DNA of 64,000 bases from Paraburkholderia azotifigens (GTDB lineage: Bacteria > Pseudomonadota > Gammaproteobacteria > Burkholderiales > Burkholderiaceae). The position numbers and the translations under genes were made by a program. The notes under the pieces were generated by a model. It saw only the letters and a program-made list of their open reading frames with translations, was not told the origin of the DNA and searched no databases. The DNA lies in contig NZ_VOQS01000003.1 in assembly GCF_007995085.1 (NCBI RefSeq), forward strand, positions 434,001 through 498,000. Reading direction: 5' to 3'. This document shows, in pieces, positions 32,016-53,271 of this stretch. Positions within the stretch are counted from its first letter, which is position 1. Each line of letters begins with the position of its first letter.

Positions 32016-32098
32016 ATTAAACACTGCGGACGTATCTGCGTTGTGTCCGCAATGTCCGCTATTGAGTCGGTATGTATCAGGTGGCGGCGCAGATACAT
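32016..32098 (-). promoter_or_regulatory. GATACRT-type promoter array for hydrolase paralog 1
   Basis: Read on the minus strand, GATACGT (complement of 32030-32036) lies eight bases before the hexamer TTTAAT (complement of 32016-32021). Half-sites GACACAA (32041-32047) and GGACATT (32051-32057) lie 11 and 21 bases further upstream. Beyond them ATGTATC at 32072-32078 and GATACAT at 32092-32098 form an inverted pair. The hexamer is 73 bp from the start codon. The same geometry recurs upstream of five other transcription units in the window. Confidence 0.6.
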
Positions 32099-32105
32099 TG
32101 GGATA

Positions 32106-32132
32106 CAAAAAGGGCCGCGAAAGCGCGGCCCT
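32106..32132 (-). terminator. rho-independent terminator of the cupin gene
   Basis: A 9-bp perfect stem (32111-32119 with 32124-32132, loop AAAG) followed on the minus strand by five T. It ends the leftward AraC-cupin transcript just before the GATACRT promoter array of the next gene. Confidence 0.85.
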
Positions 32133-32165
32133 CTAGCAGGAACTCAACCGGTGCGAACGTTCGCG

Positions 32166-32621
32166 CTACGGTCTGGCCTTGTTCGCTTCGTCGGAATCGT
32201 AGGTGACGTAGAGCTTCGTATAGCCGCTGGTATCGAACTGTCCCGTCCAGCCTTTTGGAAGCGTGACGCCTTCGCCCGTATTCACGACCATCACCGAGCC
32301 GTCCGACGACGTCAGCTTCACGCTGCCCGACAGAAAATAAAGAAACTCGGTATACGGCAGTCCTTGCGGGCCCTTGATCTCTTCGTGCAGCGGGCCCGAC
32401 TTGTAGACGCCCGTCTGATACGCGTTATCGGGCGATGTGTAGGTCACGGCGTCCGTGCTTCGATTGCCGTGTTCGTCCTTCGTGACGGCATCTTTGCGCT
32501 TGAATATCGCGCCCGCCAGATCGGCTTTCGACACCTTGACGGGTTGGATCGTTTGCGCATGCAAGCCCGTCGATGCCATCGCGCCCGTCAAGATCGCTGC
32601 GGCGAATAGTGTTCTGACCAT
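32166..32621 (-). CDS. exported cupin-domain protein
   Basis: A 151-residue protein with a signal peptide (LFAAAILTGAMASTGLHAQ) and a single cupin domain. The beta-barrel motif region reads YTEFLYFLSGSVKLTSSDG and then GEGVTLPKGWTGQF. The usual histidine metal ligands are largely absent, so a binding or sensor role is as likely as catalysis. AAGGAAAA before ATG 32621 supports the start. It begins 22 bp after the AraC-type gene on the same strand, so the two form an operon. Confidence 0.78.
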   Translation of the reverse strand: MVRTLFAAAILTGAMASTGLHAQTIQPVKVSKADLAGAIFKRKDAVTKDEHGNRSTDAVTYTSPDNAYQTGVYKSGPLHEEIKGPQGLPYTEFLYFLSGSVKLTSSDGSVMVVNTGEGVTLPKGWTGQFDTSGYTKLYVTYDSDEANKARP

Positions 32622-32643
32622 CGATGGTTTTCCTTGTGACTGA

Positions 32644-33021
32644 CTATGGCTGAACCAGGACACCCGCACAGCGGAAGTCCGATGGTGACACGCCGTATTG
32701 CTGCTTGAAAAGACGGCTGAAATGCGCGGCGGTGGTGAAACCGCATTGCCAGCCGATCTCCTGTATCGAACTGTTGCGCGGCTCGAGCGCGCGCAACAGG
32801 AGCCGCGCCCGCTCGAGCCGCGCCTGCCACACGTAACGCATCAGCGAAATGCCCTTCGTGCGAAACAGGCGCTGCAAATGTTGCGGCGACACGTGTACGC
32901 CCGCTGCGATGCCGGCGACGTCGAGCGCCGTATCGCCGAGATGCGATTCGATGTAACGCTTCGCCTGGTGAATCAACGCTTCGGGACAACGCCGTGTCGA
33001 GCGCGCGCCGGGATCGATCAT
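32644..33021 (-). CDS. AraC-family DNA-binding protein lacking a sensor domain
   Basis: A 125-residue protein consisting only of the AraC/XylS DNA-binding domain. The first HTH is DVAGIAAGVHVSPQHLQRLF and the second SIQEIGWQCGFTTAAHFSRLF, followed by GVSPSDFR. Full-length family members have 280-320 residues with an N-terminal ligand domain. I see no matching domain upstream in any frame, so it is either a naturally short type (like SoxS/MarA) or an old truncation. It is co-transcribed with the cupin gene. Confidence 0.85.
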   Translation of the reverse strand: MIDPGARSTRRCPEALIHQAKRYIESHLGDTALDVAGIAAGVHVSPQHLQRLFRTKGISLMRYVWQARLERARLLLRALEPRNSSIQEIGWQCGFTTAAHFSRLFKQQYGVSPSDFRCAGVLVQP

Positions 33022-33478
33022 CGAATAGCCGGGTCACTACACTGAAAGATCACAACTCTTTCTCTGTAGAGACTTTCTGGCGGAATCACTATGACCGATT
33101 ACTCCACTGCACTGTCGTCGAACGTTCGCGAGCGCTCCTATACCGATGGAGAATGGGCTGCATGCCTGGAGGAATTGTCCGGGGCGGTTTGACGCTTGTC
33201 TAAAACGCGCTTTATGAAAACGCCCTTTTATAGCGCATTCGGCGCGCTGGAATATGTCCGAATGTATCTGGCGCCGCACGGGAAACAAATCGTTTCAAAG
33301 CGTTGTCGCCGGGTACTTTGCACAAGCAACGACGAGGATCGGGCGTGCGAATGAGCGTTACAGACAAGACAGATGCGCCGCATGGACAAGGCTTTCGGCA
33401 AATTGAAGCGATACAGTAAGAGGTTCCTTCAGCTACCCAGGCAACGGGGACGTTTTCTCTTCAGCTTCACGATTTGCG
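33022..33478. other. intergenic region with an isolated ATGTATC box
   Basis: About 457 bp between the divergent AraC and sigma-factor genes. ATGTATC at 33262-33268 matches the box seen upstream of other genes in the region, but lacks a good partner hexamer and 11-bp half-site. A 33-codon open frame at 33091-33192 has a weak ribosome site. I see no supported gene. Confidence 0.4.
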
Positions 33479-34003
33479 ATGCAGTGTATCGATCTCCCGC
33501 TCGTTCTTCCAGCAATACTTCCGCGGCTCTGGCCGTTTGCATTACGGCTAACGGAGAACGAGTGCAAAGCGGAAGAACGGGTTCAGCGCGCTTGCATGCG
33601 CGCACTCGAAAACGAAACAGCATTTGCGCACGATGCTTCGCCGCTGAACCGGATGTTCTCGATTGTCTATTCGATCTGGCGCGACGATTTGCGGGGCCGC
33701 ATGCAGCGCCATTGCGTGCACGCGGCCGCGAGCATCATGCGAAGCGGCGCGAACACCCGTTCGACAGCGCGAACGGATGAAGTCATCGGACACGCCATCA
33801 GTGCGATCGAACAGCTCACGCTGACCCAGCGCATCGCATTGCTGCTGGTCAATGTCGAAGGTCTCGATTACGAACAGGCCGCCGAAGTGCCCGGCGTCGA
33901 CGTGTCCGTGGTCAGGAACCGTCTGTGCACGGCACGCAAGCGTATCGGCGCATCGTGCGCCGCGCGACAGTTCTCGATACACGGACACATGCGCGCGGAA
34001 TAG
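33479..34003 (+). CDS. ECF-type RNA polymerase sigma factor
   Basis: A 174-residue protein with a region 2 (ILPRLWPFALRLTENECKAEERVQRACMRALE) and a region 4 (AIEQLTLTQRIALLLVNVEGLDYEQAAEVPGVDVSVVRNRLCTARKRIG) of the ECF sigma-70 family. The usual DxxD of region 2 is degenerate. No anti-sigma factor is encoded beside it, which is common for some ECF groups. Target promoters are unknown; it lies inside the signalling-rich island. Confidence 0.85.
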   Translation: MQCIDLPLVLPAILPRLWPFALRLTENECKAEERVQRACMRALENETAFAHDASPLNRMFSIVYSIWRDDLRGRMQRHCVHAAASIMRSGANTRSTARTDEVIGHAISAIEQLTLTQRIALLLVNVEGLDYEQAAEVPGVDVSVVRNRLCTARKRIGASCAARQFSIHGHMRAE

Positions 34004-34139
34004 ATCCGTATAGCGAAGTGTTGTCGAATCAGGCAACCGACATTTCGCAGCGGATCTCGCTACGCGAATGCGCTGCCCGATCCTCTCTTTTCAACGGGAA
34101 TACGACGATGCGCGTGTTCCGTTATGGTCCAGATAGAAC

Positions 34140-34589
34140 ATGTCATCCTTCTCGAGAATGCTGCTCGTGTACGACGAGAGTGCCGAAGCGCAAGCCGCGT
34201 TGAACCGCTGCTCGCAACTCTCTCTTGCGTTGTCGGCGCACGTCGACGTCGTCTCAATCGTCGATTCCGTCACGGCGAATGCGACCTGTGCGGGCATGCT
34301 GTCCGATCTCGCATGCAGCCGCATGGAAGAACACGCGCGTCACGCGCTCGACGCCGCTGTCGGGCATCTGGCGAACGCGGGGATCAGCGCGTACGGCCAT
34401 CTCAAGTACGGACGTCCCGCCGATGTGATTTCACTGCATGTGGCGGCCTTTCACGCCGATATCGTGGTGATCGGCCATCGCGTGCAGAAGGGATTGGCGC
34501 GCTGGTGGGGCGAGCGCCCCGTTCATCTCGATCTCGCCGAGCGCCTGCGCGGCTCGACAATCGTGACGGTGACGCCGCCGCTCGTATAG
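34140..34589 (+). CDS. universal stress protein (UspA family)
   Basis: A 149-residue Usp-fold protein. The N-terminal strand RMLLVYDESAEAQAAL, the central ADVISLHVAAFHADIVVIGHR and the terminal LRGSTIVTVTPPL follow the family. The ATP-binding glycine loop (G-2x-G-9x-G-S/T) is distorted, so this is more likely the non-ATP-binding type. It is transcribed toward the amidase gene, with a short hairpin between them. Confidence 0.88.
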   Translation: MSSFSRMLLVYDESAEAQAALNRCSQLSLALSAHVDVVSIVDSVTANATCAGMLSDLACSRMEEHARHALDAAVGHLANAGISAYGHLKYGRPADVISLHVAAFHADIVVIGHRVQKGLARWWGERPVHLDLAERLRGSTIVTVTPPLV

Positions 34590-34599
34590 CGCTCGGCGC

Positions 34600-34622
34600 C
34601 TGGCGGCGAAGCAAGCCGCCAG
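34600..34622. terminator. small hairpin between convergent Usp and amidase genes
   Basis: Perfect 8-bp arms CTGGCGGC (34600-34607) and GCCGCCAG (34615-34622) with a 7-base loop, without a T-tract. It may be a weak shared terminator. Confidence 0.4.
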
Positions 34623-34641
34623 CCAGGTTCGACCCGCAGAC

Positions 34642-36042: not shown

Positions 36043-36081
36043 GTTGTCCTCGATAATAATTCGGACTGTCAATGATGCCGC

Positions 36082-36519: not shown

Positions 36520-36637
36520 CGACTCATCTCCCGTCACTGTCGCGGCCATATCGTGAACGTGAACACATGGTTGTCCGGCTGGCGGCCTCGCGCGCTGATG
36601 TACGCACAAGGACGCCAGCCTGCAGCTCGTGCAGCGA

Positions 36638-37030
36638 TCAGCCGCCGCCTTGCTGGCGCAGCGTCAGCTTGCTCGTGACGGACGTGACGCCGTGCACCTG
36701 CCTCGCCGTTTCGACGGCGAGACGGTCCTGGTCTTCGCTCGTGATCTGGCCGGCGAGCGTGACGGCGCCCGTCTTCGCGTTGCCGAACGCGGTGATCGAC
36801 GTGTCTTCGAGACCCTTCGTCTTCAAGATCGTCTTTTGAACGGTCTTGGAGAACGCGCGGTTGGCAGCGCGAATCTGCTTCTTCGACGCGCCGGACTGCG
36901 TGGCCGATCTGGTCGTCGTGGCCGCTGCGTCCGTTGCCGATGCTGCGGCATCCGCAGCGAAAACAGGTGCGCACGAGAATGCGACGGCTGCGGTGAGGCT
37001 GCTGCTCATCAGGAACTGGCGGAGTTTCAT
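36638..37030 (-). CDS. periplasmic BON-domain protein
   Basis: A 130-residue protein with a signal peptide (SSSLTAAVAFSCAPVFA), an Ala/Thr/Ser-rich linker and one BON domain (KTILKTKGLEDTSITAFGNAKTGAVTLAGQITSEDQ...VTSVTSKLTL). BON domains bind phospholipid surfaces and occur in envelope-stress proteins such as OsmY. It has a dedicated GATACRT-type promoter at 37101-37153, with the hexamer 70 bp from the start codon, so it is a likely member of the local regulon. Confidence 0.88.
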   Translation of the reverse strand: MKLRQFLMSSSLTAAVAFSCAPVFAADAAASATDAAATTTRSATQSGASKKQIRAANRAFSKTVQKTILKTKGLEDTSITAFGNAKTGAVTLAGQITSEDQDRLAVETARQVHGVTSVTSKLTLRQQGGG

Positions 37031-37100
37031 TGTCTTGTCCTTGTCGTTTGAAAACTGGGCTGCAGGCCGTCAGATGCTCTGACTCCGACGCCTGCCAAGG

Positions 37101-37153
37101 ATTAGAAACGCGCAATGTATCGTCTGTGTTTCCTCGACGTATCCAAATGTATC
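37101..37153 (-). promoter_or_regulatory. GATACRT-type promoter array of the BON gene
   Basis: On the minus strand: TCTAAT (37101-37106), eight bases, GATACAT (37115-37121), then upstream half-sites GAAACAC (37126-37132), GATACGT (37137-37143) and GATACAT (37147-37153). The starts are spaced 11, 11 and 10 bp, one helical turn each. This is the longest regular array of this motif in the window. No TTGACA-like -35 is present, as expected for an activator-dependent promoter. Confidence 0.65.
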
Positions 37154-37241
37154 GGGCTTACGGTTGCATTGCGGCGTTCGCTCATTGCGCTCATTCAGCA
37201 CGCGCAATCACAGGCGATGCTAACGCCGCCGGAAACTGACG

Positions 37242-37727: not shown

Positions 37728-37759
37728 CCGCGTCTTCGTTCTGCGAGAAAAGCGCACCG

Positions 37760-38422
37760 TTAGCGCGGCGCGTGCGCGATCCCGAGCGCTTCCATTTTGC
37801 GCATCAGTTCGGCGACCGAACGTGCGCCCATCTTGCGCATTGCCTGGCCGCGATGGATCTTCGCGGTGATCTCCGCGATGCCCATATTCGCGGCGATCTG
37901 CTTGTTCAACAGCCCCGTTGCCACATGCTGCAGCACCTCGCGTTCGCGCGGCGTGAGCGACTCCCAGGCCGTGCGCATCGCATGCAGCGAGCGATCCGAT
38001 GCGAGACGCCGCGCGTCGCGCTCAAGCGCGGCGATCACGGCGTCGATCATGTCCTGATCGCGGAACGGCTTGGCGAGAAAATCCATCGCACCCGCCTTCA
38101 TCGCCTTCACCGACATCGCAATGTCGCCATAGCCCGTCATGAAGATGATGGGCATATGCAGCCGTCCGTCTTCGATCAGCGTCTGCTGCAGCGCGAGTCC
38201 GCTCTGACCGCGCAGCCGCACGTCGAGCACGAGGCAGGATGGAATGACGGGCTTGTCGGCGGCGAGAAAATCTTCCGTCGACGCGAACGTGCGCACATCG
38301 ATACCGATCGAGCGCAGCAGCCCCGAAAGCGCGCCACGTACGAGTTCATCGTCGTCGACGACATACACGAGGCGGGCATCGGATTCAGAGGAAGCTGTCT
38401 GGAAAGGCGTGGATTTGGACAT
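37760..38422 (-). CDS. FixJ/NarL-type response regulator
   Basis: A 220-residue regulator. The receiver shows VVDDDE, the phospho-acceptor in CLVLDVRLRGQSG, FMTGYGD and the LAKPF lysine. The C-terminal LuxR-type HTH begins at about 155 (SLTPREREVLQHVATGLLNKQIAANMGIAEITAKIHR). ATG 38422 gives a normal N-terminus; the open frame continues to 38479. It follows the 1700-residue hybrid kinase gene by 111 bp on the same strand and is its likely partner. Confidence 0.92.
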   Translation of the reverse strand: MSKSTPFQTASSESDARLVYVVDDDELVRGALSGLLRSIGIDVRTFASTEDFLAADKPVIPSCLVLDVRLRGQSGLALQQTLIEDGRLHMPIIFMTGYGDIAMSVKAMKAGAMDFLAKPFRDQDMIDAVIAALERDARRLASDRSLHAMRTAWESLTPREREVLQHVATGLLNKQIAANMGIAEITAKIHRGQAMRKMGARSVAELMRKMEALGIAHAPR

Positions 38423-38533
38423 CGTTGCTGTTGATGATTTCGATGACGCGGATGGCCGCTGGACAAAACGGCCGCTCATGGTAACAAATGGACTCAGGGC
38501 GGTCCACGACGCTCAGCCGCGCGCGCAAGGCAA

Positions 38534-41500
38534 TCATACGATCGTATGCGGCGCGCGATTCGCGAGACAGGGCAGCGTAAACATGGCGCGCGTGCCCCTC
38601 GTTTCGCGCGGCGCAAGCATGAGTGTTCCGCCATGTGCTTCGACAATCGAATTGCAAATGGCGAGCCCCATGCCCATGCCGTTTTCCTTCGTGGTGAACA
38701 GCGGTTCGAGCAGCCGCTCCGCGATTTGCGGATCGATGCCGCTGCCGAGATCCTCCACCGACACGCATACCGGTCCGCCCTCCTCCTGCGTGCAGATCAG
38801 CTTCAGCTTGCGTTCGCTCTGCGCGAGCGCCGCCATCGATTCGGCTCCGTTCGTGAGCAGATTGATCGCGACCTGCTGCAACTGGATGCGGTCGCCATGC
38901 ACCTGCACGGGATAGTCGAGTCCGCGCAGTTCGAGCCTGATCTTCAGCGCGTCCAGCTGGCCCGCGACAAGCGCGGCCGCTTCGCGCAATGCGTCGTTCA
39001 GATCGAGCGTCGCGAACTGCGGCTCCGCTCGGCGCGCCTTGGCGCGCAGCGCCTGGATGATTGCACGCGCACGTGTGGCGCTCATGCTGATGTGCGTGAG
39101 CATCTCGCGCGTTTCGCCGATGTCGGGCGGATTGCGATCGAGCCAGCGCAATGCCGCGCTCGCCGACGTACCGACGGCCGCAAGCGGCTGCCCCACTTCA
39201 TGCACGATCGATGCGACGAGTTCGCCCATCGCCTTCAGACGGCTCGCCCGTTCCAGCTCGCCGAGCGCGTTGCGCAACTCGTCTTCCGCCTGCGCACGCT
39301 GACGGTTCTGCTCGGACAGTTCTTCATAGAGACGCGCGTTTTCGAGCGCGAACGCAGCCTGCGAAGCCACGACTTCGAGCAACGCCGCTTTCGCCGACGT
39401 GAACACATTGGCAGCGAGATTGTTCTCCAGATACAGCACGCCAACGAGCATCGCGTAACGCATCAGCGGCACGCACAGCACCGAGCGCGGACGCTGGCGC
39501 CGCACGTAGTCGTCCTGGGCATAGGCGGGCGAATCGCATACGTCGTCGAGCACCAGCTTTTCCTGCGTGCGCGCCACGGCATGCACGATCGATACAGGCA
39601 GCGTATCCGACGAAAATTCAGCCGTCTCGTGCGAGACGACGATCGCACCGCCCAGCACATGCGCGCACGCCGGCACGCGCCATACGCCCCGATGCAGCAG
39701 CACGAGCGCGCCCTGATCGGCACCCGCGCTTTCGAGTGCGGTACGCAACAGCGTTTCGACGAGACGCGCGGGCACGATGTTGCTGGCAAGCGCGTTCGAA
39801 ATGCGCAGTACGGCCTGCACGTCGAGTTCCTGCAAGCGGCTCGCAGCGGGCGCACTGCCGTCGGCGTCGACGTAGTCCGGATAGTCGGCCTGCAACTGGC
39901 GCACCTTCGCCGTCGCCCCCCAGCGCTGCCACGCACCCCGCGCATGATTCAGATAGGCTTGCGCGGGCACCTCTTCGCCGCGAGCAGCGTGAAAACGCGC
40001 CGCCAGTTCGGCGGCGAGCGCTTCGACTTGCGTGAAGCCATTGCGGCGCGCGTGCGAAAGCGCCTTCGCATAGGCTTCGCCTGCTTCATGCGCAACGCCG
40101 TGCGCACGCGCGTACTCGGCACGCACCAGCTCGCGGCGGCCGACGAAATTGATCGGACATGCGCGCGCCCATGTATCGAGCCGTTCCATATGGCGCTGTA
40201 GCGCCGCTTCCTGTTCAGCATCGCGCGCGGGCAACGCGAGCAGCGCGAGCGCGCCGTAATAAGGCAGTTCGGCGGACTCCGCGAACGAGCGCGCGACGTG
40301 CGAGCAGGCTTGCGCACGCCGACGGGATTCGAGCGCATCGGCGATGTCGCCGAACAGAAACGCCCGTTGCAAGCGGTACACCCAGTACGCGAGGTCCACC
40401 AGCGTCACGGGCGTGCCTTCCACGGGCTCGGGCGGCGGCTCCTCGCCCGCGTCCGGCTCGCCGTCCTGCAGCGCGGTCACCAGCGCCCACTTCGCGAGAA
40501 ACGACTTGATCACCAGACGGAAATTCGCGTCCCGCACCAGCGCGAGTCCGCGCGTGATGGTGGCGCGCACGTCGCCGAGAAACTCGCCCGCGAACAGCAT
40601 GCCCGTCACCTGGTTGCTCGGGCAATACATCGCGAACGTATGATCGCCGCTTGCAACGGCCACGTCGAACGCGCGGCGGATGTAGTCGCGTCCGGTTCGC
40701 GCGGGCAGCGCCCACGGCACGATCCATGTGCCGAACACCATGTAGACCCGCGCGCGATACCGCGCGAGGCCGCGCTCGTCGACCAGATGCAACGCCAGTT
40801 CGCCGAACGGCAGCGCCGCCGCATGGTCGCCGTAGCGCGCGGCGAAGATCTGGTGCAAGCAGGTGTACACGTTCGCGGTTGCGTCGGACTGCCCGTGCTC
40901 GCTCGCGAGATTGACGGCGCGCAGCAGCATCAGGTCGACGAGATCCTGGTCCGTGTAGAGCGCGGGCGGAATCAGGTCGGCGAAGATGTCGGTGATCGCG
41001 CGCCGCAACGGATCCGCGACGATGGGCAGGCCGCGCAAGCCGTCGATGCCGTGCTCGTCGAGCCAGCTTCGCAGGCGCGCATATTCGCGGTCGACGTCGG
41101 CGGCCTGCGGATGCCGCGGCACGTCGATGCCCGCCTTGCGCAGGAACGCGATGCCCACCTCCAGCGCCAGATCGTAACGGCCGAGCGTCGTGTAGAGGGC
41201 TGCGCGCAGACGTGCGAGGTCCGCGCCGAAGATGCCTTCGCCTGCCACCGTCTCCAGCGCGGAAAGCCGCGCTTCGGCGGGTTCGAGCGCGCCCGTCATG
41301 AACTCCGCCTCGCCGCACAGCATGCGGGCCTTCAGGCCGTCTTCGCTGGTGTCGTCGTGGCCGAGAAAGTCGAGCGCCGCCCGAAACAGACCCAGCGCCG
41401 AATGATGCGCGGTGGCCGCCTTCGCCTCGCATCCCGCGTCGAGATTGAGCCGTGCAAAAGCAATCCGTTCGTCGCGATCCGCGACCACGGAACGCGCGAG

Positions 41501-43777: not shown

Positions 43778-45049
43778 TTAACGCAATGGCCTGAAGCCCG
43801 CCCGCACTTCCTGAGCGAACAGCAGCGGCTCTTCCCAGGCCGCGAAATGACCGCCTTTGTCGACCTCGTTGAAATAGATCAGATTGTGATACGCGCGTTC
43901 GGCCCAGCTGCGAGGCGCCTGATAGATCTCGCCGGGGAACACCGTGATTGCAGCCGGCAGGGCGATATCGACGGCATTGAAGTTGTTCGAATGGTCTTCC
44001 CAATAGATCTGCGCCGACGAGGTCGCGCTGTCGGTCAGCCAGTACAGCGAGATGTCGTCGAGAATCTCGTCGCGCGTCAGCGAGCGCTCGGGAATGCCGC
44101 CGCTATCGGTCCACTGCGAAATCTTGTCGTACATCCACGCGGCCTGACCCACGGGCGAATCGGCGAGCGCATAGCCGACCGTCTGCGGGCGCGTGACCAT
44201 CATCGCCGAGTAGCCGCAATTGTCGCGATAGAACACGGCGAGCTTCTCGTACGCGTTCTTCTCCTTCGGCGACAGTCCGGCGGGCGCGGGTGCATCGAGC
44301 GCCAGCGAACGCGCGATATCGGGCGGCACCGTCGCGGGCATGTTCACATGAATGCCGATCAGCCCCTTCACGTGCTGCATCGCCATCCGATGCGAGACCA
44401 CGGACCCGCAGTCGCCGCCTTGCGAGACGAAGCGCGTATAGCCGAGCCGCTCCATCAGCACGCCCCATGCGCGCGCGATATGGTCCGAGCCCCAGCCCGG
44501 TCTGGTCGGCTTGCCCGAGAAGCCGAAGCCGGGCAGCGACGGCACGACCACGTGGAAGGCGTCGTCCGCGCTTGCGCCATAGGCGGTCGGATTCGTGAGC
44601 GGATCGATGGCCTTGACGAGTTCGAAGATCGAGCCGGGCCAGCCGTGCGTCATGATCATCGGCATCGCGTTCTTGTGCCGCGAGCGCACGTGAATGAACT
44701 GGATATCCAGTCCGTCGATTTCCGTCACATACATCGGCAATGCATTGAGCTTCGCTTCGCCCTTGCGCCAGTCGTATTCGCTGCCCCAGTATTGAACGAG
44801 TTTCTGCATGCGTTCGAGACGAACGCCTTGCGATTCGTCGGCGACGGTTTCTTTACCCGGCCAGCGCGTATTGGCAAGTCGCTGGCGTAAATCGGCTAGC
44901 AGACTATCTGGAATATGGGCTTTAAAAGGCCGGATATTCTCCGCGTCACTGGCGGCATAGATCGCTTCGGGAAATAACGCAAATGCGCCGGCCGCGACGG
45001 TGGCGGCCAGCACGTTACGCCGCATCGGCGAGAACGGTGTTGAAGACAT
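43778..45049 (-). CDS. secreted epoxide hydrolase (EHN family)
   Basis: A 423-residue protein with a Tat-like leader (MRRNVLAATVAAGAFALFP), an epoxide-hydrolase N-terminal domain (IRPFKAHIPDSLLADLRQRLANTRWP) and an alpha/beta hydrolase core. HGWPGS is the oxyanion motif, the nucleophile Asp sits in SQGGDCGS, and the catalytic His in KGGHFAAWEEP. The usual Trp after the nucleophile is Cys. Members open epoxides of aromatic or terpenoid compounds. A GATACRT-type promoter lies about 100 bp upstream of ATG 45049. Confidence 0.9.
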   Translation of the reverse strand: MSSTPFSPMRRNVLAATVAAGAFALFPEAIYAASDAENIRPFKAHIPDSLLADLRQRLANTRWPGKETVADESQGVRLERMQKLVQYWGSEYDWRKGEAKLNALPMYVTEIDGLDIQFIHVRSRHKNAMPMIMTHGWPGSIFELVKAIDPLTNPTAYGASADDAFHVVVPSLPGFGFSGKPTRPGWGSDHIARAWGVLMERLGYTRFVSQGGDCGSVVSHRMAMQHVKGLIGIHVNMPATVPPDIARSLALDAPAPAGLSPKEKNAYEKLAVFYRDNCGYSAMMVTRPQTVGYALADSPVGQAAWMYDKISQWTDSGGIPERSLTRDEILDDISLYWLTDSATSSAQIYWEDHSNNFNAVDIALPAAITVFPGEIYQAPRSWAERAYHNLIYFNEVDKGGHFAAWEEPLLFAQEVRAGFRPLR

Positions 45050-45152: not shown

Positions 45153-45194
45153 ATTAGAAGCGGCGAATGTATCTCGCGTTTGTCCGCGATGTAC
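45153..45194 (-). promoter_or_regulatory. GATACRT-type promoter array of the epoxide hydrolase gene
   Basis: On the minus strand: TCTAAT (45153-45158), eight bases, GATACAT (45167-45173), then GACAAAC (45178-45184) and GTACATC (45188-45194), spaced 11 and 10 bp. The geometry is identical to the BON and hydrolase promoters. It would drive the leftward epoxide hydrolase gene. Confidence 0.62.
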
Positions 45195-45348: not shown

Positions 45349-47004
45349 ATGAATCAGCAGCAACATGACAATGCTTCGGCGAACGACCGTTATCCGCGCT
45401 TCACCAAAGCCGAGGTCGAAAAGATGATGCGCTTCGGCATCATTGAACGCTGGCGCGCGGGCGATGTCATGTTTCGCATCGGCCAGCCGGGACTCGGCAT
45501 GCGCGTGCTGTTGAGCGGCCGCGCGAGACTCTCGCGGCGCGATGGGCTCGGCCGCTCGCAGACCATCGTCGAACTGGGCGAAGGCCAGTTCCTCGGCGAA
45601 GTCGCGCAGCTCACGGGCAAGCCCGCGCTTGCCGATGGCCTCGCGCTCGACGACGTCGAAGCGCTGATGATCCCGCCTGAACAGATACGCGAGCTGCTCG
45701 TGGCGCAAGCGCATCTGGGCGAGCGCATCATGCGCTCGCTCGTGCTGCGCCGCTTCGGTCTCGTGCGCGAGGGCGCGGGCCCCGTGCTGATCGGACGTTC
45801 GGGCGATCTTCGGCTGCTCGCGCTCGAAGGCCTGCTGCACCGGCTCGATCATCCTTATACGGTCGCGGACCCGGCGACCGATTCCGATATCCGCGCGCTG
45901 CTCGAAGACTGGGGCGTGTGGCATGGCGACGTGCCCGTCGTGATGCTCGCGGACGGCACGCCGCTGCGCGATCCCGGCGAACGCGAACTGGCCGCGCGGC
46001 TGGGCCTGCTGCCCGAACTCGACTCGACGCGTACCTATGACGTCGCCGTGGTCGGCGCGGGGCCTGCCGGTCTTGCGGCGGCCGTCTATGCCGCCTCCGA
46101 AGGACTCTCCGTGATCGTCTTCGACAGCCACGGTCCCGGCGGACAGGCGGGCGCGAGCGCGCGGATCGAAAACTATCTCGGCTTTTCCACAGGCGTATCG
46201 GGCCGCGAACTCGCGGCCAACGCGTTCGCGCAAGCGGTGAAGTTCGGAGCCGAAGTCGTGATCCCGACACGCATCGGCCGGCTCGATTGCACGCAGACGC
46301 CGCTGCAACTCGAACTCGAAGGCGGCCAGCGCATCGCGTCGCGTACCGTCGTGATCGCGACGGGCGCGGCGTACCGGCGCCCCGCCATCGAAGGCCTCGA
46401 CGATGTCGCGGGCCGTGGCGTCTATTACTGGGCTTCGTCCGTCGAAGGCCGGCTGTGCCGCGGCGCGGAGGTGGTACTCGTGGGCGGCGGCAATTCGGCG
46501 GGACAGGCGGCCGTGTATCTGGCTTCGCAGGCGAGCCGCGTCCACATGCTGATTCGCGGCGACAGCCTCGAGAAGAGCATGTCGCGCTATCTGATCGACC
46601 GCATCGCATCGCTCGGCAATGTCACGCTGCATACGCAGACCGTCATCGCGTCCGTCAGAAGCGATCAATGGGGACTCGAGGCCGTGAACTGCAATACGCC
46701 CGAAGGCGAGCGCGTATTCGACACGCGGCATCTGTTCCTCTTCACGGGCGCCGATCCCAATACGCAGTGGCTTCGCGATTGCAGCGTCGGGATCGACGAA
46801 CGCGGCTTCGTGAAGACGGGACTGGCGGCAGGCGTGCGCGCCGATACGGCCTGCTTCGCGCTGCAGACGAACGTGCCCGGCGTGTTCGCGATCGGCGATG
46901 TACGCAATGCATCGGCGAAGCGAGTCGCGGCGGCAGTGGGCGACGGCGCCGCCGTCGTGGCGGAGATTCATCAGTTTCTGAGCGCGCCCTCACCTGTCGC
47001 CTGA
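45349..47004 (+). CDS. cNMP-binding, thioredoxin-reductase-like FAD oxidoreductase
   Basis: A 551-residue three-part protein. Residues about 15-135 form a cyclic-nucleotide-binding-like domain (GDVMFRIGQPGLGMRVLLSG, GQFLGEVAQLTGKPALAD). A short thioredoxin-like segment follows, then a class-II FAD/NAD(P) reductase (VVGAGPAGLAAAVYAASEG, GGNSAGQAAVYLASQ, GVFAIGDVR). The CxxC redox motif of thioredoxin reductase is absent; that region reads WASSVEGRLC. It may reduce a partner directly or sense redox state. A 16-bp dyad motif is immediately upstream. Confidence 0.88.
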   Translation: MNQQQHDNASANDRYPRFTKAEVEKMMRFGIIERWRAGDVMFRIGQPGLGMRVLLSGRARLSRRDGLGRSQTIVELGEGQFLGEVAQLTGKPALADGLALDDVEALMIPPEQIRELLVAQAHLGERIMRSLVLRRFGLVREGAGPVLIGRSGDLRLLALEGLLHRLDHPYTVADPATDSDIRALLEDWGVWHGDVPVVMLADGTPLRDPGERELAARLGLLPELDSTRTYDVAVVGAGPAGLAAAVYAASEGLSVIVFDSHGPGGQAGASARIENYLGFSTGVSGRELAANAFAQAVKFGAEVVIPTRIGRLDCTQTPLQLELEGGQRIASRTVVIATGAAYRRPAIEGLDDVAGRGVYYWASSVEGRLCRGAEVVLVGGGNSAGQAAVYLASQASRVHMLIRGDSLEKSMSRYLIDRIASLGNVTLHTQTVIASVRSDQWGLEAVNCNTPEGERVFDTRHLFLFTGADPNTQWLRDCSVGIDERGFVKTGLAAGVRADTACFALQTNVPGVFAIGDVRNASAKRVAAAVGDGAAVVAEIHQFLSAPSPVA

Positions 47005-47251: not shown

Positions 47252-48295
47252 ATGCAAGACACGGTGAATCTGCGGCGCCGCCGGCTGATCGGCACGGCCG
47301 CGGCGGGCCTCGGCCTGCTCGAACTCGGGCTGAACAATCTCGCGTTCGCGCAGACGCCGAAGGGCACGCATGCGGCGAAGAAGGCCGCGCACCATACGTC
47401 GTTCGACGCGATCGAGCAGATCGACGCGGGCTTGCTGAACATCGGCTACGTGGACACGGGCCCGAAGGACGGCCAGCCCGTCATCCTGCTGCACGGCTGG
47501 CCATACGACATCTACGCATTCGTCGATGTCGCGCCGATCCTCGCCGCGCAGGGCTACCGCGTGATCGTGCCGTATCTGCGCGGCTACGGCTCGACGCGCT
47601 TCCTGTCCAACGAAACGATGCGCAACGGCCAGCAGGCCGCGGTCGCCGTCGACATCATCGCGCTGATGGATGCGCTGAAGATCGATCAGGCCATCTTCGG
47701 CGCGTTCGACTGGGGCGCGCGCACCGCCTGCATCATCGCGGCACTGTGGCCGCAGCGCTGCAAGGCGCTCGTCTCCGTGAGCGGCTATCTGATCGGCACG
47801 CCCGAAGCCAACCGCAAGCCGCTGCCGCCGAAGGCCGAGTTCGAATGGTGGTATCAGTTCTACTTCGCGACCGAGCGCGGCGAAGCGGGCTACACGGCCA
47901 ATCGCAACGACTTCAACAGGCTGATCTGGCAACTGGCTTCGCCGAAGTGGCATTTCGACGACTCGACGTATCAGCGCACGGCGGCATCGTTCGCGAATCC
48001 CGATCACGTCTCCATCGTGATCCACAACTACCGCTGGCGTCTCGGCCTCGCGCAAGGCGAAGCGCAGTACGACGACATCGAGAAGCGCCTCGCCGCGCTG
48101 CCGGCCATCTCCGTGCCGACCATCACGATGGAAGGCGACGCGAACGGTGCGCCGCATCCGCCCGCGGCAGCCTACGCCAAGATGTTCACGGGCAAGTACC
48201 AGCATCGCGACGTGAGCGGCGGCATCGGCCACAACCTGCCGCAGGAAGCGCCGCGGGCGTTCGCCGACGCCGTCATGCAGGTCGTGCGGCTGTGA
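47252..48295 (+). CDS. Tat-type secreted alpha/beta hydrolase (paralog 2)
   Basis: A 347-residue hydrolase very similar along its whole length to the product of 30917-31942. It shares the twin-arginine leader (NLRRRRLIG), HGWPYDIYAF, the nucleophile in GAFDWGAR, the WWYQFYFATERG segment and the catalytic His in GGIGHNLPQEAP. AAGGAG six bases before ATG 47252 decides the start against an upstream in-frame ATG. The gene is followed 54 bp later by an OmpR-type regulator gene, probably in one operon. Confidence 0.9.
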   Translation: MQDTVNLRRRRLIGTAAAGLGLLELGLNNLAFAQTPKGTHAAKKAAHHTSFDAIEQIDAGLLNIGYVDTGPKDGQPVILLHGWPYDIYAFVDVAPILAAQGYRVIVPYLRGYGSTRFLSNETMRNGQQAAVAVDIIALMDALKIDQAIFGAFDWGARTACIIAALWPQRCKALVSVSGYLIGTPEANRKPLPPKAEFEWWYQFYFATERGEAGYTANRNDFNRLIWQLASPKWHFDDSTYQRTAASFANPDHVSIVIHNYRWRLGLAQGEAQYDDIEKRLAALPAISVPTITMEGDANGAPHPPAAAYAKMFTGKYQHRDVSGGIGHNLPQEAPRAFADAVMQVVRL

Positions 48296-48349
48296 TCCCG
48301 GACGCGTTCAACCCATGCAACGCAATCCGTCGCATATCGACCTGACATC

Positions 48350-49105
48350 ATGGACAAACCCGACCACGTTCTGATCGTCGACGAGGATCGCGGCGTACGC
48401 GAATTCGTCGCGGCCTATCTCGAGAAAAACGGTATGCGGGTCACGCTCGCGTCGAGCGGGCGCGACATGCATGCCGTGCTCGAACGCGATACGCCCGATG
48501 TGATCCTGCTCGACCTGATGCTGCCCGGCGAAGACGGTCTCGCGCTGTGCCGCGGGCTGCGCGCGGGCCGTCATCGCGCGCTGCCGCTCATGTTGCTCAC
48601 GGAGCAATGCGACGAAATGGACCGCATCATCGGTCTGGAGATGGGCGCGGACGACTTCCTCGCGAAGCCGTTCGCCGTGCGCGAACTGCTCGCCCGCATC
48701 CGCGCGGTGCTGCGCCGCACGCGCATGCTGCCGCCGGGCATGCTGATCGCGGAATCGTCGGAGATGCTCGGCTTCGGCGACTGGCGGCTCGATACGACGG
48801 CCCGTCATCTGCTCGACAACGACGACGCCGTGGTTGCGTTGAGCGGCGCCGAGTACCGGCTGCTGCGCGTGTTTCTCGATCATCCGCAACGCGTGCTGAC
48901 GCGCGACCAGCTGCTCAATCTGACGCAGCGGCGCAATGCCGAACCGTTCGACCGTTCGATCGACCTGCTGGTCAGCCGGCTGCGTCAACGGCTCGGCGAC
49001 GTCGCCCGCGTGCCGCGCTACATCAAGACGCTGCGCAACGAAGGCTACGTGTTCTCGTCGAGCGTCAAGGCCGTCGAGGAACTGCGCGAGCGGCAGCACG
49101 CCTGA
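48350..49105 (+). CDS. OmpR-type response regulator (paralog 1), orphan
   Basis: A 251-residue regulator. The receiver has VDEDRG, the phospho-acceptor in ILLDLMLPGEDG, LLTEQ and the LAKPF lysine; a PhoB/OmpR winged HTH follows (ALSGAEYRLLRVFLDHPQRVLTRDQLLNLTQ, RSIDLLVSRLRQRLGD). No sensor kinase gene is adjacent. It is highly similar to the regulator encoded at 52321-53091. PhoB-type proteins bind 11-bp direct half-sites just upstream of -10 hexamers, which is the arrangement of the GATACRT promoters nearby. Confidence 0.92.
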   Translation: MDKPDHVLIVDEDRGVREFVAAYLEKNGMRVTLASSGRDMHAVLERDTPDVILLDLMLPGEDGLALCRGLRAGRHRALPLMLLTEQCDEMDRIIGLEMGADDFLAKPFAVRELLARIRAVLRRTRMLPPGMLIAESSEMLGFGDWRLDTTARHLLDNDDAVVALSGAEYRLLRVFLDHPQRVLTRDQLLNLTQRRNAEPFDRSIDLLVSRLRQRLGDVARVPRYIKTLRNEGYVFSSSVKAVEELRERQHA

Positions 49106-49140
49106 CGCGGCGGCCGCGACGTTCGCGTCGCCGCTTCATT

Positions 49141-49233
49141 TGTATCGCCATGTATCGGGCGCCCGCCGCGATACATCGCGATACGCAAACCCTACCTTCC
49201 TGACATTCGCCGGATACATGCGCGGACTCTAAT
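49141..49233 (+). promoter_or_regulatory. GATACRT-type promoter and four-box dyad array of the DipZ gene
   Basis: TCTAAT at 49228-49233 is preceded, eight bases upstream, by GATACAT (49213-49219) and, 11 bp further, by GACATTC (49202-49208). Upstream, TGTATC (49141), ATGTATC (49150), GATACAT (49170) and GATAC (49180) form an inverted repeat of two pairs. The boxes at 49170, 49180, 49202 and 49213 stay in helical phase. The hexamer lies 69 bp from the DipZ start codon. Confidence 0.65.
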
Positions 49234-49302
49234 CCTGCATAACGGCACGCGCCACGTGTGCCAACCGGTCGAAGCCATCCATCGCGGATCAGGAGGTTGT
49301 TC

Positions 49303-51069
49303 ATGTTACTCATCGTCATCGCGTTTCTCGGCGGGGTGCTCACGATACTGAGCCCCTGCATCCTGCCTGTCGTGCCGTTCGTCTTCGCGCGCTCCGACAG
49401 GCCCTTCGTCACGGACCGGCTGCCGCTCCTGATCGGGCTCGCCGTCACGTTCTCGGTCGTCACGGGCGTCGGCATCGCCGGCCTTGCGGGCGCCGCACAG
49501 CTGAGCCACTACGGACGCTGGGTGTCGCTCGCGCTGTTCGCCGTGTTCGGCCTGTCGCTGCTTTTTCCCGCGCTGTGGACGCGTGTGTCGCGCCCGTTCT
49601 TCAGCATCGGCAACCGCGTCGAGGCGTTGTCGCATGCACAAGGCGCGCGCTTCCAGGTCGTCTCCGCGCTGCTGCTCGGCGCCGCGACGGGCTTGCTGTG
49701 GGCGCCCTGCGCCGGCCCGATCCTCGGCCTGATCCTCACGGGCGCCGCGTTGCATGGCGCGAACTGGCAGACGGCGGCCGCACTGACCGCCTACGCGTTC
49801 GGCGCGGCCAGCTCGCTCGCCGTGGTCTCGGGGCTCGGCAAACAGGCTCTCGGTGGCCTCAAGCGCTCGATCGGTTTCGGCGAGCGCGTGCGCCGCGTGA
49901 TGGGCGCCGTTGTGCTGCTGAGCGTCGCGGGTATCGGCTTCGGCTTCGATACGCGTGCCCTCGCGCATGTGCCGTCGGCGTCGACGACGGGTGTCGAAAG
50001 CCGTCTGGTCGGCCTGCTTTCCGCCAGCAATATCAGTAATAACAGCGACGGCAGCGACCGTCCGCACCTGCAGCGCATCAGCCTGCAGACGCCTTCGAAG
50101 CTGCCCGTCGAAGGCAAGCTGCCCTCGCTCGACGGCGCCGAAAGCTGGATCAATTCGCCGCCGCTCACGGCCGATGCATTGCGCGGCAAGGTCACGGTCG
50201 TCAACTTCTGGACGTATTCGTGCATCAACTGTCTGCGCACGCTGCCGTATCTGAAGACGTGGTCGGACCGTTACGGCAAGGACGGCCTCACTGTCGTCGG
50301 CGTGCACACGCCGGAGTTCGCGTTCGAGCACGATCCGTCTAACGTGAAGCGCGCGGTCGCGGATCTCGGCATCCGCTATCCTGTCGCGATCGACAACGGC
50401 TACAAGATCTGGCAAGCGTTCGGCAACCAGTACTGGCCGGCGTTCTATATCGTCGATACGCAAGGACGTATCCGCTATCACCATTTCGGTGAAGGCGGCT
50501 ATGGCGAAGCGGAAAAGGTCATCCAGCAGCTGCTGGCCGACTCGGGACACACGATGCAGGCAGGCGATCTGCCGCCCATCCACGGCTCCGGCGCACAGGC
50601 AGCGGCGGATGCATCGAATGTCGAATCGGGCGAGACCTATGTCGGCTATCAGCAGGCGCGCGGCTTTGCTTCGCCGCAGGACATCCGTCCCGATGACGCC
50701 GCAAGCTACACCATTCCGTCGCAGTTGCCGCTCAATAGCTGGGCGTTCGGCGGCAAGTGGATCGTCGGCGGCGAAGCGGCTGTGGCGAACGAAGCGAATG
50801 GGCGCATTGCCTACCGCTTCCATGCACGCGACCTGCATCTCGTGCTCGGACCGGGCGCGAACGGCAAGCCTGTGCGCTTTCGCGTGACGATCGACGGCGC
50901 CGCGCCCGGCGAGTCGCATGGCGCCGACGTCGCCGCCGACGGCAGCGGCGTGGTGACGAGCGCGCGGCTCTATCAACTCGTGCGCCAGCACGATGGCGTG
51001 CGCGACCGGACCTTCACGATCGAGTTCCTCGATCCGGGCGTGCAGGCCTTCTCGTTCACGTTCGGCTGA
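49303..51069 (+). CDS. DipZ-type thiol-disulfide protein (CcdA-like + thioredoxin domain)
   Basis: A 588-residue protein. The N-terminal CcdA/DsbD-like membrane domain (about residues 1-225) has six helices with cysteines in LSPCILP and WAPCAGP. A TlpA-like thioredoxin domain follows with CxxC in TYSCINCLRTLP, and a C-terminal beta-rich domain of the DipZ family (about 450-588) completes it. It would move reducing power across the membrane to periplasmic thiols. AGGAGG six bases before ATG 49303 fixes the start. It has its own GATACRT promoter and a strong terminator. Confidence 0.92.
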   Translation: MLLIVIAFLGGVLTILSPCILPVVPFVFARSDRPFVTDRLPLLIGLAVTFSVVTGVGIAGLAGAAQLSHYGRWVSLALFAVFGLSLLFPALWTRVSRPFFSIGNRVEALSHAQGARFQVVSALLLGAATGLLWAPCAGPILGLILTGAALHGANWQTAAALTAYAFGAASSLAVVSGLGKQALGGLKRSIGFGERVRRVMGAVVLLSVAGIGFGFDTRALAHVPSASTTGVESRLVGLLSASNISNNSDGSDRPHLQRISLQTPSKLPVEGKLPSLDGAESWINSPPLTADALRGKVTVVNFWTYSCINCLRTLPYLKTWSDRYGKDGLTVVGVHTPEFAFEHDPSNVKRAVADLGIRYPVAIDNGYKIWQAFGNQYWPAFYIVDTQGRIRYHHFGEGGYGEAEKVIQQLLADSGHTMQAGDLPPIHGSGAQAAADASNVESGETYVGYQQARGFASPQDIRPDDAASYTIPSQLPLNSWAFGGKWIVGGEAAVANEANGRIAYRFHARDLHLVLGPGANGKPVRFRVTIDGAAPGESHGADVAADGSGVVTSARLYQLVRQHDGVRDRTFTIEFLDPGVQAFSFTFG

Positions 51070-51094
51070 TCGCCCGGCGGCAGCTTCCTGAAAG

Positions 51095-51133
51095 ACGCCA
51101 CTGCGCCCTTGCGGCGCAGTGGCGTTTGCATTT
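51095..51133 (+). terminator. rho-independent terminator of the DipZ gene
   Basis: A perfect 13-bp stem (51095-51107 with 51113-51125, five-base loop) followed by a T-rich stretch to 51133. It lies 26 bp after the DipZ stop. Confidence 0.88.
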
Positions 51134-51247
51134 GAACGGTTTCGAAACGCGCTTGAACGCCGGAGCGCCCGCAAGTCGCCGGCGATTTGTACCCGAATGT
51201 ATATATCGCCGGTCAGGAAATACTGGCTTACATTCCGGCGCGTTCCG

Positions 51248-51279
51248 GAAACAAGCCAGATACGTCAGCGGGTTCAAAT
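51248..51279 (+). promoter_or_regulatory. GATACRT-type promoter of the DUF4148 gene
   Basis: GAAACAA (51248-51254) and, 11 bp on, GATACGT (51259-51265), then eight bases, TCAAAT (51274-51279). Same geometry as the other sites. The start codon of the DUF4148 gene is 117 bp downstream. Confidence 0.6.
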
Positions 51280-51396
51280 AACGACACGCAAGGTTGATTC
51301 ATGACAGTGCGAACTGACCGGGCAACCAGCGCATCGCAAACGCGATAACCGCCCGGGTGACGTCAACGCAGTCCATTCACCTACTGGAGAAAACCC

Positions 51397-51726
51397 ATGA
51401 AACTCGTTCAATCCCTCGTCGTTGCAGCATTGCTCGCCGCTCCCGCTCTCTCGTTCGCACAGTCGAACCAGCCGTTGACGCGCGCGCAGGTTCGCGCCGA
51501 ACTCGTGCAGCTTCAACAGGCGGGCTACAACCCCGCCAGCGACAACACGCAATACCCGGAGAATATCGAAGCCGCCCTGTCGCGCATCCAGGCCGAACAG
51601 GGCGTGGCATACGGCGGCGTGGCAGCGGGCCAGTCGAAGTCGGGCGCGCGTCGCGACACCGCGCAAACGCCTGCGCCGCAGCAACAGGACGTGCTCGGTC
51701 TCGAACCCGTCTACGCACACTCGTGA
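51397..51726 (+). CDS. DUF4148 exported protein
   Basis: A 109-residue protein with a signal peptide (LVQSLVVAALLAAPALSFAQ) followed by the DUF4148 core LTRAQVRAELVQLQQAGYNPASDNTQYP and a Gln/Ala-rich tail. The family is abundant in Burkholderiaceae envelopes; its function is unknown. GGAGAAAA before ATG 51397 supports the start. A GATACRT-type promoter lies upstream. Confidence 0.9.
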   Translation: MKLVQSLVVAALLAAPALSFAQSNQPLTRAQVRAELVQLQQAGYNPASDNTQYPENIEAALSRIQAEQGVAYGGVAAGQSKSGARRDTAQTPAPQQQDVLGLEPVYAHS

Positions 51727-51889
51727 TGGCAACGGCTCCGTTGCGAACGCGTGCGGGCCGCCGTTCGCAACGGACCAACCTGGCAACGTAAGCGCAGCAC
51801 GAAGCCATTCACCGATAACGCGGTACGCAGGGGCAACACAATGACAAGAACCTTCCGGACTTACTGCTGCTGACGCAGATCATCCGGCT

Positions 51890-52324
51890 GCGCGGCGGCA
51901 AGCGGGCGCCGATCATGTGATCGTCGACAGCGAAGGCCGTTTCGCCGACGACGTCATGCGCCTCACCGACGGCGAAGGCGTGCATGTCGTCTACGACGGT
52001 TCGGGGCCCGCGACGTTTCAGGGTTCGCTCGCGTCGCTGCGCCGCTCGGGCACGTTCTGCTGGTATGGGCCCGTGCTCGGCGATGCGGGTCCCATCCACA
52101 TCATGAGCCTGCCGAAGAGCATAAAGATCGGCTACGCGACGTTCGCGGACCACATCCATACGCCTGCGCTGCTGCGCGCGAAGACCCGGCAGCTGTTCGA
52201 CTGGATCATCGCGGGCGTGCTGGATGTGCGGATCGGCGGTGTGTATCCGCTCGCGGATGCGGCGCGGGCGCATGCCGATATGGAAAGCCGCAGGACGACG
52301 GGAAAGCTGCTGCTCGTACCCTAG
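51890..52324 (+). pseudogene. C-terminal remnant of a quinone oxidoreductase
   Basis: The frame encodes the last ~140 residues of a zinc-free MDR/quinone-oxidoreductase protein: RQAGADHVIVDSEG, GVHVVYDGSGPATFQGSLASLRRSG and the C-terminal YPLADAARAHADMESRRTTGKLLLVP. Intact enzymes have about 325 residues. The N-terminal catalytic half is missing; upstream DNA in this frame is unrelated and closes at a stop near 51842. Its stop overlaps the stop of the convergent OmpR-type gene by a few bases. Confidence 0.82.
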
Positions 52325-53091
52325 GCGAAGCAGGCGCGCACAGGCACATGCAACGTGGCGTTATCGTCGGCCGTCACCGTCGCGGTGAACAGATAGCCTT
52401 CGTTGCGAAGCGTCTTGATGTAACGCCCGTCGCGCACGCCGTCCTGCAGGCGCTGACGCACGCGGCTCACGAGCAGGTCGATCGAACGGTCGAGCAGATC
52501 GGCGTGACGTCCCTGCGTCATGTTGAGCAACTGGTCGCGCGTGAGCACGCGGTTCGGGTGATCGAGAAACACCCGCAACAGCCGGTACTCGGCGCCGCTC
52601 AACGCGACCAGTGTGCCTTCTGCATCGAGAAGATGGCGTGCGCCCGTGTCGAGCCGCCATTCGCCGAAGCGCAGGATCGATGCCGACTCCGCGATCCGCA
52701 TGCCGGGCGGCAGCATGTTCGTGCGGCGCAGAACGGCGCGGATGCGCGCCAGCAGTTCGCGGATCGCAAACGGTTTGGACAGGTAGTCGTCGGCGCCCAT
52801 TTCGAGGCCGAGGATCCGGTCCGCTTCTTCGTCACGCGCGGACAGCATCACGATGGGTATCGCGTGAAAGTCGCCCGCACGCAGTTCGCGGCACAGCGTG
52901 AGGCCATCCGTATCGGGCAACCTCACGTCGAGCACGATCAGATCGGGCCGGTCGAGGACGAGCGCGGCGCGCATCTCGCGCCCGTTGCCCGCGTGCGAGA
53001 CGCGCATGCCATTGCGTTCCAGATAGACGGCGACCAGCGCGCGGATCTCACGATCGTCGTCGACGATCAGGACGTGTTCGAGCTTCTTCAT
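52321..53091 (-). CDS. OmpR-type response regulator (paralog 2), orphan
   Basis: A 256-residue regulator strongly similar to the 48350-49105 product. The receiver has VDDDRE, the acceptor in LIVLDVRLPDTDG, MLSARDEE and YLSKPF; the winged HTH has LSGAEYRLLRVFLDHPNRVLTRDQLLNMTQ and RYIKTLRNEGYLF. The C-terminus carries an extra TADDNATLHVPVRACFA tail. No kinase gene is adjacent. The start is ATG 53091. Both paralogs are candidates for binding the GATACRT arrays; several such boxes lie in the region upstream (53180-53271). Confidence 0.92.
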   Translation of the reverse strand: MKKLEHVLIVDDDREIRALVAVYLERNGMRVSHAGNGREMRAALVLDRPDLIVLDVRLPDTDGLTLCRELRAGDFHAIPIVMLSARDEEADRILGLEMGADDYLSKPFAIRELLARIRAVLRRTNMLPPGMRIAESASILRFGEWRLDTGARHLLDAEGTLVALSGAEYRLLRVFLDHPNRVLTRDQLLNMTQGRHADLLDRSIDLLVSRVRQRLQDGVRDGRYIKTLRNEGYLFTATVTADDNATLHVPVRACFA

Positions 53092-53239
53092 GACAAGTTC
53101 TACGGCTGCGGCGAAACACTCAGCCTGCTGTTCCCACTGACTGCGCGGCGTGCGCGCGCGACGCGAAAGCGCCGCGTCTGTATGCGCATGTATCCGCCCT
53201 TGCGCGGCGATACACGACGTTGCACGCGAAACCATTTCA

Positions 53240-53271
53240 GACACGCGGCAGATACATCTGGCTGCTCAAAT
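53240..53271 (+). promoter_or_regulatory. GATACRT-type promoter between ompR-like and lysR genes
   Basis: GACACGC (53240-53246), then 11 bp on GATACAT (53251-53257), eight bases, TCAAAT (53266-53271). A further GATACAC at 53209 is four turns upstream. Rightward transcription would reach the LysR gene at 53422; an opposite-strand box at 53188-53194 faces the OmpR-type gene. Confidence 0.58.

Follow-up and report, generated by a model that had tools for sequence, protein, structure and literature searches.

Why should one short DNA element stand, with unchanging internal spacing, in front of six different genes or operons? The case comes from Paraburkholderia azotifigens, from positions 434,001 to 498,000 of contig NZ_VOQS01000003.1; this whole stretch of 64,000 nucleotides is called the window here, the part of it around the six copies the island, and the element, GAMAH-N6-GATACRT-N8-TNNAAT, the module. 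An initial annotation had taken it for a PhoB-like promoter. As judged from sequence, the module is very probably the operator-promoter of one two-component regulon of the OmpR subfamily, and its likely readers are the two OmpR-type proteins encoded in the island or their paralogue elsewhere in the genome.

Six copies in the window and others beyond it

Shuffling the window gives an expectation of 0.01 copies of GATACRT-N8-TNNAAT, and none of 100 shuffles reached the six that are present; GATACRT by itself occurs 21 times where 6.8 would be expected. At all six a GAMAH half-site begins 11 bp 5′ of GATACRT, and all six are intergenic by codon-usage gene calls. Site 1 (32016–32047, minus strand) reads GACACAACGCA-GATACGT-N8-TTTAAT and lies 5′ of genes for an alpha/beta hydrolase (30917–31942, minus, its start codon read from the sequence) and, second in line, a cytochrome P460 protein (30310–30894, minus). 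Site 2 (37101–37153, minus), in which the module is accompanied by two extra half-sites, is 5′ of a BON-domain gene (36638–37030, minus), and site 3 (45153–45184, minus) of an epoxide hydrolase gene with an EHN domain (43778–45049, minus; 45049 is the probable start, from translation). The minus-strand GATACRT 7-mers span 32030–32036, 37115–37121 and 45167–45173, the coordinates of the initial annotation being their low ends. On the plus strand, site 4 (49202–49233) precedes the gene for a DipZ-like protein with DsbD_TM, redoxin and Thioredoxin_10 domains (49303–51069), and has extra half-sites on both strands from 49142 to 49185; site 5 (51248–51279) precedes a DUF4148 gene (51397–51726), and site 6 (53240–53271) a gene for a LysR-family regulator (53422–54366). 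By eye, site 2 has four half-sites, 10, 11 and 11 bp apart start to start, and sites 1, 3 and 4 at least three each, at spacings of 9–11 bp and, once at site 4, 22 bp.

Does the module stop at the borders of the island? Within the window it does, there being no copy besides the six. The 9.70-Mb genome, though, has nine exact copies of the full module; a single mismatch is present in two more and a pair of mismatches in a further 15. A reversed control gives no exact match, and three altogether when up to two mismatches are allowed. Outside the island, the three exact copies stand before two OsmC/Ohr genes (C3:527299 and C5:1957437) and before a small MarR-like frame that has a nitrilase gene behind it (C3:1797843); of those with one mismatch, C5:1281900 lies in front of a short frame of periplasmic-thioredoxin-like type, from which a LysR gene diverges (all these names being read from sequence). 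The other, C5:289459–289490, gives by eye the impression of a decayed second copy of the promoter at the nitrilase locus. With six of nine exact copies in the island and three elsewhere, the regulon would be island-centred and not island-confined. The six positions, the 11-bp and 8-bp geometry and the presence of three or four half-sites at several sites were thus as the initial annotation had described them, and the module is far from being as frequent by chance. Its failure to see the module outside 30–54 kb holds for the window and does not extend to the genome, and a regulon bounded by 21 kb has to be given up.

What lies behind the module in relatives? For 74 distinct copies from 56 loci the first gene encodes a DipZ/TlpA-type thioredoxin in 21 cases (with two more of a DsbD-TM-like cluster), a member of DUF4148-like clusters in 18 (13 + 4 + 1), an epoxide hydrolase in 14, OsmC in four, a BON protein in three and an unclustered protein in three; alpha/beta hydrolase, catalase-like, nitrilase, amidase, LysR and one other cluster account for one or two each. 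Genes in the fetched loci came from a codon-usage caller; clusters are named from Pfam matches of their window members or, for several, by reading the sequence, and in two of the first-gene assignments the gene is over 1 kb away. In locus L160, three near-identical 72-residue genes of the DUF4148-like cluster stand in tandem (L160:14353–15147) near a regulator-kinase pair.

Co-occurrence with a regulator family

If a particular protein reads the module, the two would be expected to keep company. At least one exact module is present in 66 of 200 genomes of the family, with the reversed control at zero in every row, and a close orthologue of the island regulators (E ≤ 1e-85) occurs in 65 of these 66 as against 115 of the 200 overall. 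The comparison uses 150 listed module copies plus four module-positive genomes from the genome table (G013, G034, G051 and G114), and the scoring of this and the other proteins considered below covers some 13–17 first-look candidates per genome. Taken by genus, the module is found in 16/16 regulator-positive and 1/6 regulator-negative genomes of g1, 17/17 and 0/5 of g10, 17/21 and 0/1 of g12, 4/14 and 0/8 of g11 and 2/12 and 0/4 of g24; in g25, all of whose genomes are regulator-positive, it is in 5/11. Of the listed copies, 39 are within 5 kb of a regulator start.

Looking from the regulator and not from the module, the best 80 of 589 confirmed orthologue loci, from named genomes, were considered. 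At first look four held an exact module; with a weight matrix trained on 56 non-redundant sites, 44 held a site scoring at least 10, against one in the control. When the ten loci with Burkholderia, Paraburkholderia or Caballeronia in their titles are set aside, the figures for the other 70 are 39 and one; in 24 of these 39 the best site is no more than 500 bp from the start of the regulator, and the positive loci include Pseudomonas, Rhizobium, Mesorhizobium, Pseudoduganella and a Gallionellaceae contig. Of the bare repeat, GAMAH-N6-GATAC, there are 68 matches in the 80 loci, 62 of them intergenic, and of its reverse six. Kinase genes are present in 68 of these loci and thioredoxin genes in 30; alpha/beta hydrolases are encoded in 19 and OsmC in 16.

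The candidate readers

Two OmpR-type response regulators are encoded in the island, regulator 1 at 48350–49105 (plus) and regulator 2 at 52321–53091 (minus). They are 68% identical to each other, and both have the PF00072 receiver and the PF00486 winged-helix domain (Trans_reg_C) above cut-off, as expected of the OmpR/PhoB family. In an alignment judged by eye, the phospho-acceptor Asp and the conserved acidic, Thr/Ser and Lys residues are present (D-E-D in regulator 1, D-D-D in regulator 2). Are they then OmpR or PhoB? The best NCBIfam match of both is E. coli OmpR (NF007005), at 232.5 and 223.4 bits; since the curated cut-off is 331, they are not taken to be OmpR itself, and at 190.4 and 198.7 bits they are also below the 296.2 of PhoB (TIGR02154). 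For regulator 2, the nearest solved structures by sequence belong to generic members of the OmpR/PhoB family, KdpE (134 bits) among them, and the names of the 120 listed homologues (7,999 candidates scored) are as generic: response regulator, OmpR, winged helix, CheY.

Neither island regulator has a close or cognate kinase adjoining. Regulators 64–76% identical to them occur in nine of 20 module-rich loci of relatives, and in seven of the nine a kinase of 438–447 residues is adjacent. The genome has a third paralogue, C1:857240–857965, next to a kinase (C1:855900–857216) that is 64% identical to the kinase of L160, the next best of eight kinase matches in the genome being at 36%. As the only close kinase in the genome adjoins this third paralogue, the island regulators would be kinase-less copies. 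The segment DRSIDL(L/M)(V/I)SR(L/V)RQ(R/K)L, the presumed DNA-recognition helix, is in all ten family members aligned (the alignment left out the L183 row) and differs in a 48%-identical paralogue. At L200:9241–10460, a kinase-linked regulator is downstream of a small gene resembling that for formaldehyde-activating enzyme (read from sequence), with half-sites 5′ of both and no exact module. The initial annotation had named the two orphan, mutually similar regulators as the natural readers; their orphan state, their likeness and the orthologue in nearly every module genome bear this out, though the kinase-linked paralogue is also a candidate.

The regulator genes have a signal of their own. 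ATAC-N6-ATAC, a 10-bp tandem start to start, is found on the sense strand 5′ of 50 of 103 regulators, the region searched being up to one kilobase 5′ of each and at least one of the 50 repeats (in L090) looking coding. At the six other spacings tested between 7 and 13 bp the count is 0–3 of the 103, and at 10 bp the reversed control is empty. In many cases an ordinary TATAAA- or CATAAT-like hexamer then follows (by eye). In the window this second type of operator is represented by GATACATGCGCATACA at 53179–53194 (minus), 5′ of the gene for regulator 2, whereas there is no such pair 5′ of regulator 1 or of the C1 paralogue. Standing before the regulators’ own genes, the tandem suggests autoregulation, so the putative operator at regulator 2 is likely autoregulatory, and its position ties the GATAC half-site independently to the regulator family. 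Nine other OmpR-type loci of this genome, of 3.7 kb each, are without a GAMAH-N6-GATAC repeat.

An unusual hexamer and other difficulties

In the consensus of the 56 sites, a TTgCA/ATACA element at −31 to −27 is followed by GAMAC at −11, GATACRT at 0 and TYNAAT at +15; beyond these elements the flanks are weak. [AT]TNCA is at −31 in 31 of the sites, one base earlier in 12, and three times otherwise over the 20 offsets tested; no −35-like hexamer is visible by eye in the 56-site consensus. The fixed 10–11-bp register of the direct repeat is that of an operator of OmpR/PhoB type, and its half-sites are GAMAC/GATAC and not the TGTCA type of the pho box.

Several observations weigh against the proposed regulon, and the first concerns the hexamer. 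In a sigma-70 −10 no base matters more than the A at position 2, and over the 56 sites that position has C 32 times, T 17, G seven and A never (probability 1.5e-5 with 18% A expected, if sites are independent, which is not fully true), so that TYNAAT is not an ordinary sigma-70 −10. The 20 module-rich loci and most of the 56 target loci were picked by the exact module, and therefore the hexamer there is not independent evidence. In loci picked by the regulator, TNNAAT is at module spacing in 24 of the 62 intergenic repeats (by eye; several in-family), and the 45 repeats there whose hexamer ends in AT have C 20, T 15, G five and A five at position 2. Two ways of reading the hexamer are left: as a −10 selected not to work by itself, or as the −10 of a different sigma factor. 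Sequence thus does not simply confirm class II activation of a sigma-70 promoter: of the PhoB/OmpR-like geometry without a −35 claimed initially, the direct repeat and the lack of a visible −35 stand, but the half-sites are unlike those of PhoB and the hexamer unlike that of sigma-70.

The remaining difficulties are of distribution. No exact module is present in 50 of the 115 regulator-positive genomes, including all 19 of g3 (and its two regulator-negative ones). Variant sites, scoring at least 10 with the matrix, are near the regulator in all 20 sampled of those 50, with one in 20 for the control (14.5–16 kb per locus), and all nine g3 loci sampled hold them. Conversely, genome G104 has two exact modules, and its best OmpR-type proteins, with all candidates scored, are only 47–49% identical to the query; having no close orthologue, it may be a natural example of a reader lost or replaced. 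A matrix site was not found in 31 of the 70 distant loci, and numerous Rhizobium sites keep the repeat and have no TNNAAT. The 3.7-kb locus of the very paralogue that is linked to a kinase (L181) has scattered half-sites only and no 11-bp repeat. Since genomes share ancestry, p-values overstate independence, and co-occurrence of the module with FixJ-like and ECF-type proteins, if weaker, is also non-random.

Could the hexamer then be the −10 of an ECF-type sigma factor, with or without an OmpR-type regulator? Such a gene is in the island (33479–34003, plus), the absence of position-2 A is unusual for sigma-70, and in locus L163 ECF-like and anti-sigma-like genes (read from sequence) are downstream of an OsmC gene behind a module. 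This explanation is nevertheless unlikely. GAMAC is 26 bp from the hexamer start to start, long for the −35/−10 distance of an ECF factor; the window protein has Sigma70_r4_2 at 41.8 bits (cut-off 25.7) and region 2 at 16 bits, below the Pfam cut-off of 24. It is not among the two matches to the L163 ECF in this genome, and relatives of the L163 protein (E ≤ 1e-35), a count that excludes close relatives of the window’s own diverged ECF, are present in just 33 of the 66 module-positive genomes and missing in the other 33. As general reader an ECF factor is therefore disfavoured.

Less probable again, and by a clear step, is the FixJ-like response regulator of the island (37760–38479, minus), with the adjacent kinase of 1700 residues (38534–43636, minus; Pkinase, AAA_16, GAF and HATPase domains, HisKA slightly under cut-off). 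Close homologues (E ≤ 1e-70) are in 33 of the 66 module-positive genomes, above the expectation from 50 in the 200, but the other 33 are without one, for which reason it was rejected as general reader. A FixJ-type gene is labelled in two of the 80 orthologue loci, while 44 have a site, and the 11-bp direct repeat is the pattern of OmpR/PhoB (PMC4832192). The most improbable explanation is that a repeated element or a duplicated promoter has been carried along with the island and has no regulatory role, for which one might cite the six of nine copies in one island and the decayed-looking copy at C5:289459. It is largely refuted by conservation of half-sites, hexamer and spacing with divergence of other flanks, by the unrelated genes that follow the module in many genomes and by the nearness of the module to the regulator in other bacterial classes.

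How might it work, and what resembles it?

On the OmpR-subfamily reading, a phosphorylated dimer of the response regulator would bind head-to-tail to the GAMAC + GATAC tandem, 11 bp apart. The binder could be either island paralogue or the kinase-linked one from C1, their presumed recognition helices being almost identical. With the GATACRT box ending 8 bp before TYNAAT, the bound regulator would recruit RNA polymerase there, and since there is no −35 and a poor −10, target promoters should be silent without it. An extra half-site-like element is often present about 31 bp upstream. Many regulator genes have GATACA-like repeats 10 bp apart as a putative second operator, often with an ordinary TATAAA-like −10 behind. 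The module, its spacing, its conservation and its linkage to the regulator family are directly visible in the sequences; from these we infer that the regulator binds and activates, that the hexamer serves as a −10, the direction of control, autoregulation and the signal. The targets, thioredoxins, OsmC/Ohr, hydrolases, DUF4148 and BON proteins and, in some relatives, catalase-like proteins and nitrilase, suggest envelope defence against peroxides or electrophiles, and our guess for the signal is envelope stress of the peroxide, electrophile or thiol kind.

The closest parallel is the pho box, also in an 11-bp register, with which the module shares a direct repeat just 5′ of a −10-like hexamer, the lack of a −35 and a winged-helix response regulator; it differs in half-sites, in the hexamer without position-2 A and in its targets, which are not phosphate genes. 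E. coli OmpR, whose half-sites also end in AC, has different neighbours and different targets. The PhoB half-site is TGTCA(T/C) in the part of PMC3264566 consulted. Mycobacterial PhoP, as described in PMC4832192, has an operator of 7-bp motifs with 4-bp spacers, i.e., 11-bp direct repeats, binding reaches three and four motifs, and it was solved as a head-to-tail dimer on the tandem; it is another protein with another regulon, and its spacing is strict where here a 10-bp version stands 5′ of many regulator genes. Burkholderia glumae GluR, a RisA-like regulator, is reported to bind in front of ftsA and ftsZ, where its potential site is an inverted repeat (PMC8281045); it is likened to the island regulators as OmpR-type and of the same bacterial family. 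The portion of PMC5192318 consulted describes a different two-component system, ‘GATAC’ is absent from the main text of PMC8041468, and no paper on this regulator system was found among the matches listed in the open-access literature with the terms used.

Other genes of the window

Between sites 3 and 4 a cNMP-binding thioredoxin-reductase-like protein is encoded (45349–47004, plus), without an exact module of its own, and a second alpha/beta hydrolase gene (47252–48295, plus) is directly 5′ of regulator 1 on the same strand. Between the DUF4148 and regulator 2 genes, 51917–52324 (plus) is a 135-residue zinc-binding-dehydrogenase fragment, probably a remnant. The ECF-like gene adjoins one for a universal stress protein (34158–34589, plus), and in a 125-residue frame at 32644–33021 (minus) an AraC-type DNA-binding domain is the sole domain found. 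Farther off, 5524–6699 (plus) resembles what we take to be an IS110-type transposase. No Rfam family reached its gathering score in a search of 28000–56000.

Significance

The system appears to be widely conserved, of the OmpR/PhoB family by domain and below the curated OmpR and PhoB cut-offs, with a regulon and an operator that are apparently new within a known kind. In its widest form the proposal, to which we give an even chance, is that a two-component system, conserved among Burkholderia relatives and as far as Pseudomonas and Rhizobium, controls a regulon for peroxide/electrophile/thiol defence of the envelope by means of two kinds of operator. On the system’s own gene this would be the 10-bp tandem, followed by a normal −10; on the targets, which would be strictly off until activation, it would be the 11-bp tandem, followed by a −10 that excludes A at position 2. 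In this genome the system would have been amplified to three regulators that share one kinase. A widespread stress system would then have a DNA code, a family of regulators and a list of targets to its name, and scattered thioredoxin, OsmC, hydrolase and DUF4148 genes would become one testable regulon. The A-avoiding −10 of the targets, set against the ordinary-looking −10 of the regulator gene, may also offer a natural contrast for strict activator dependence of promoters.

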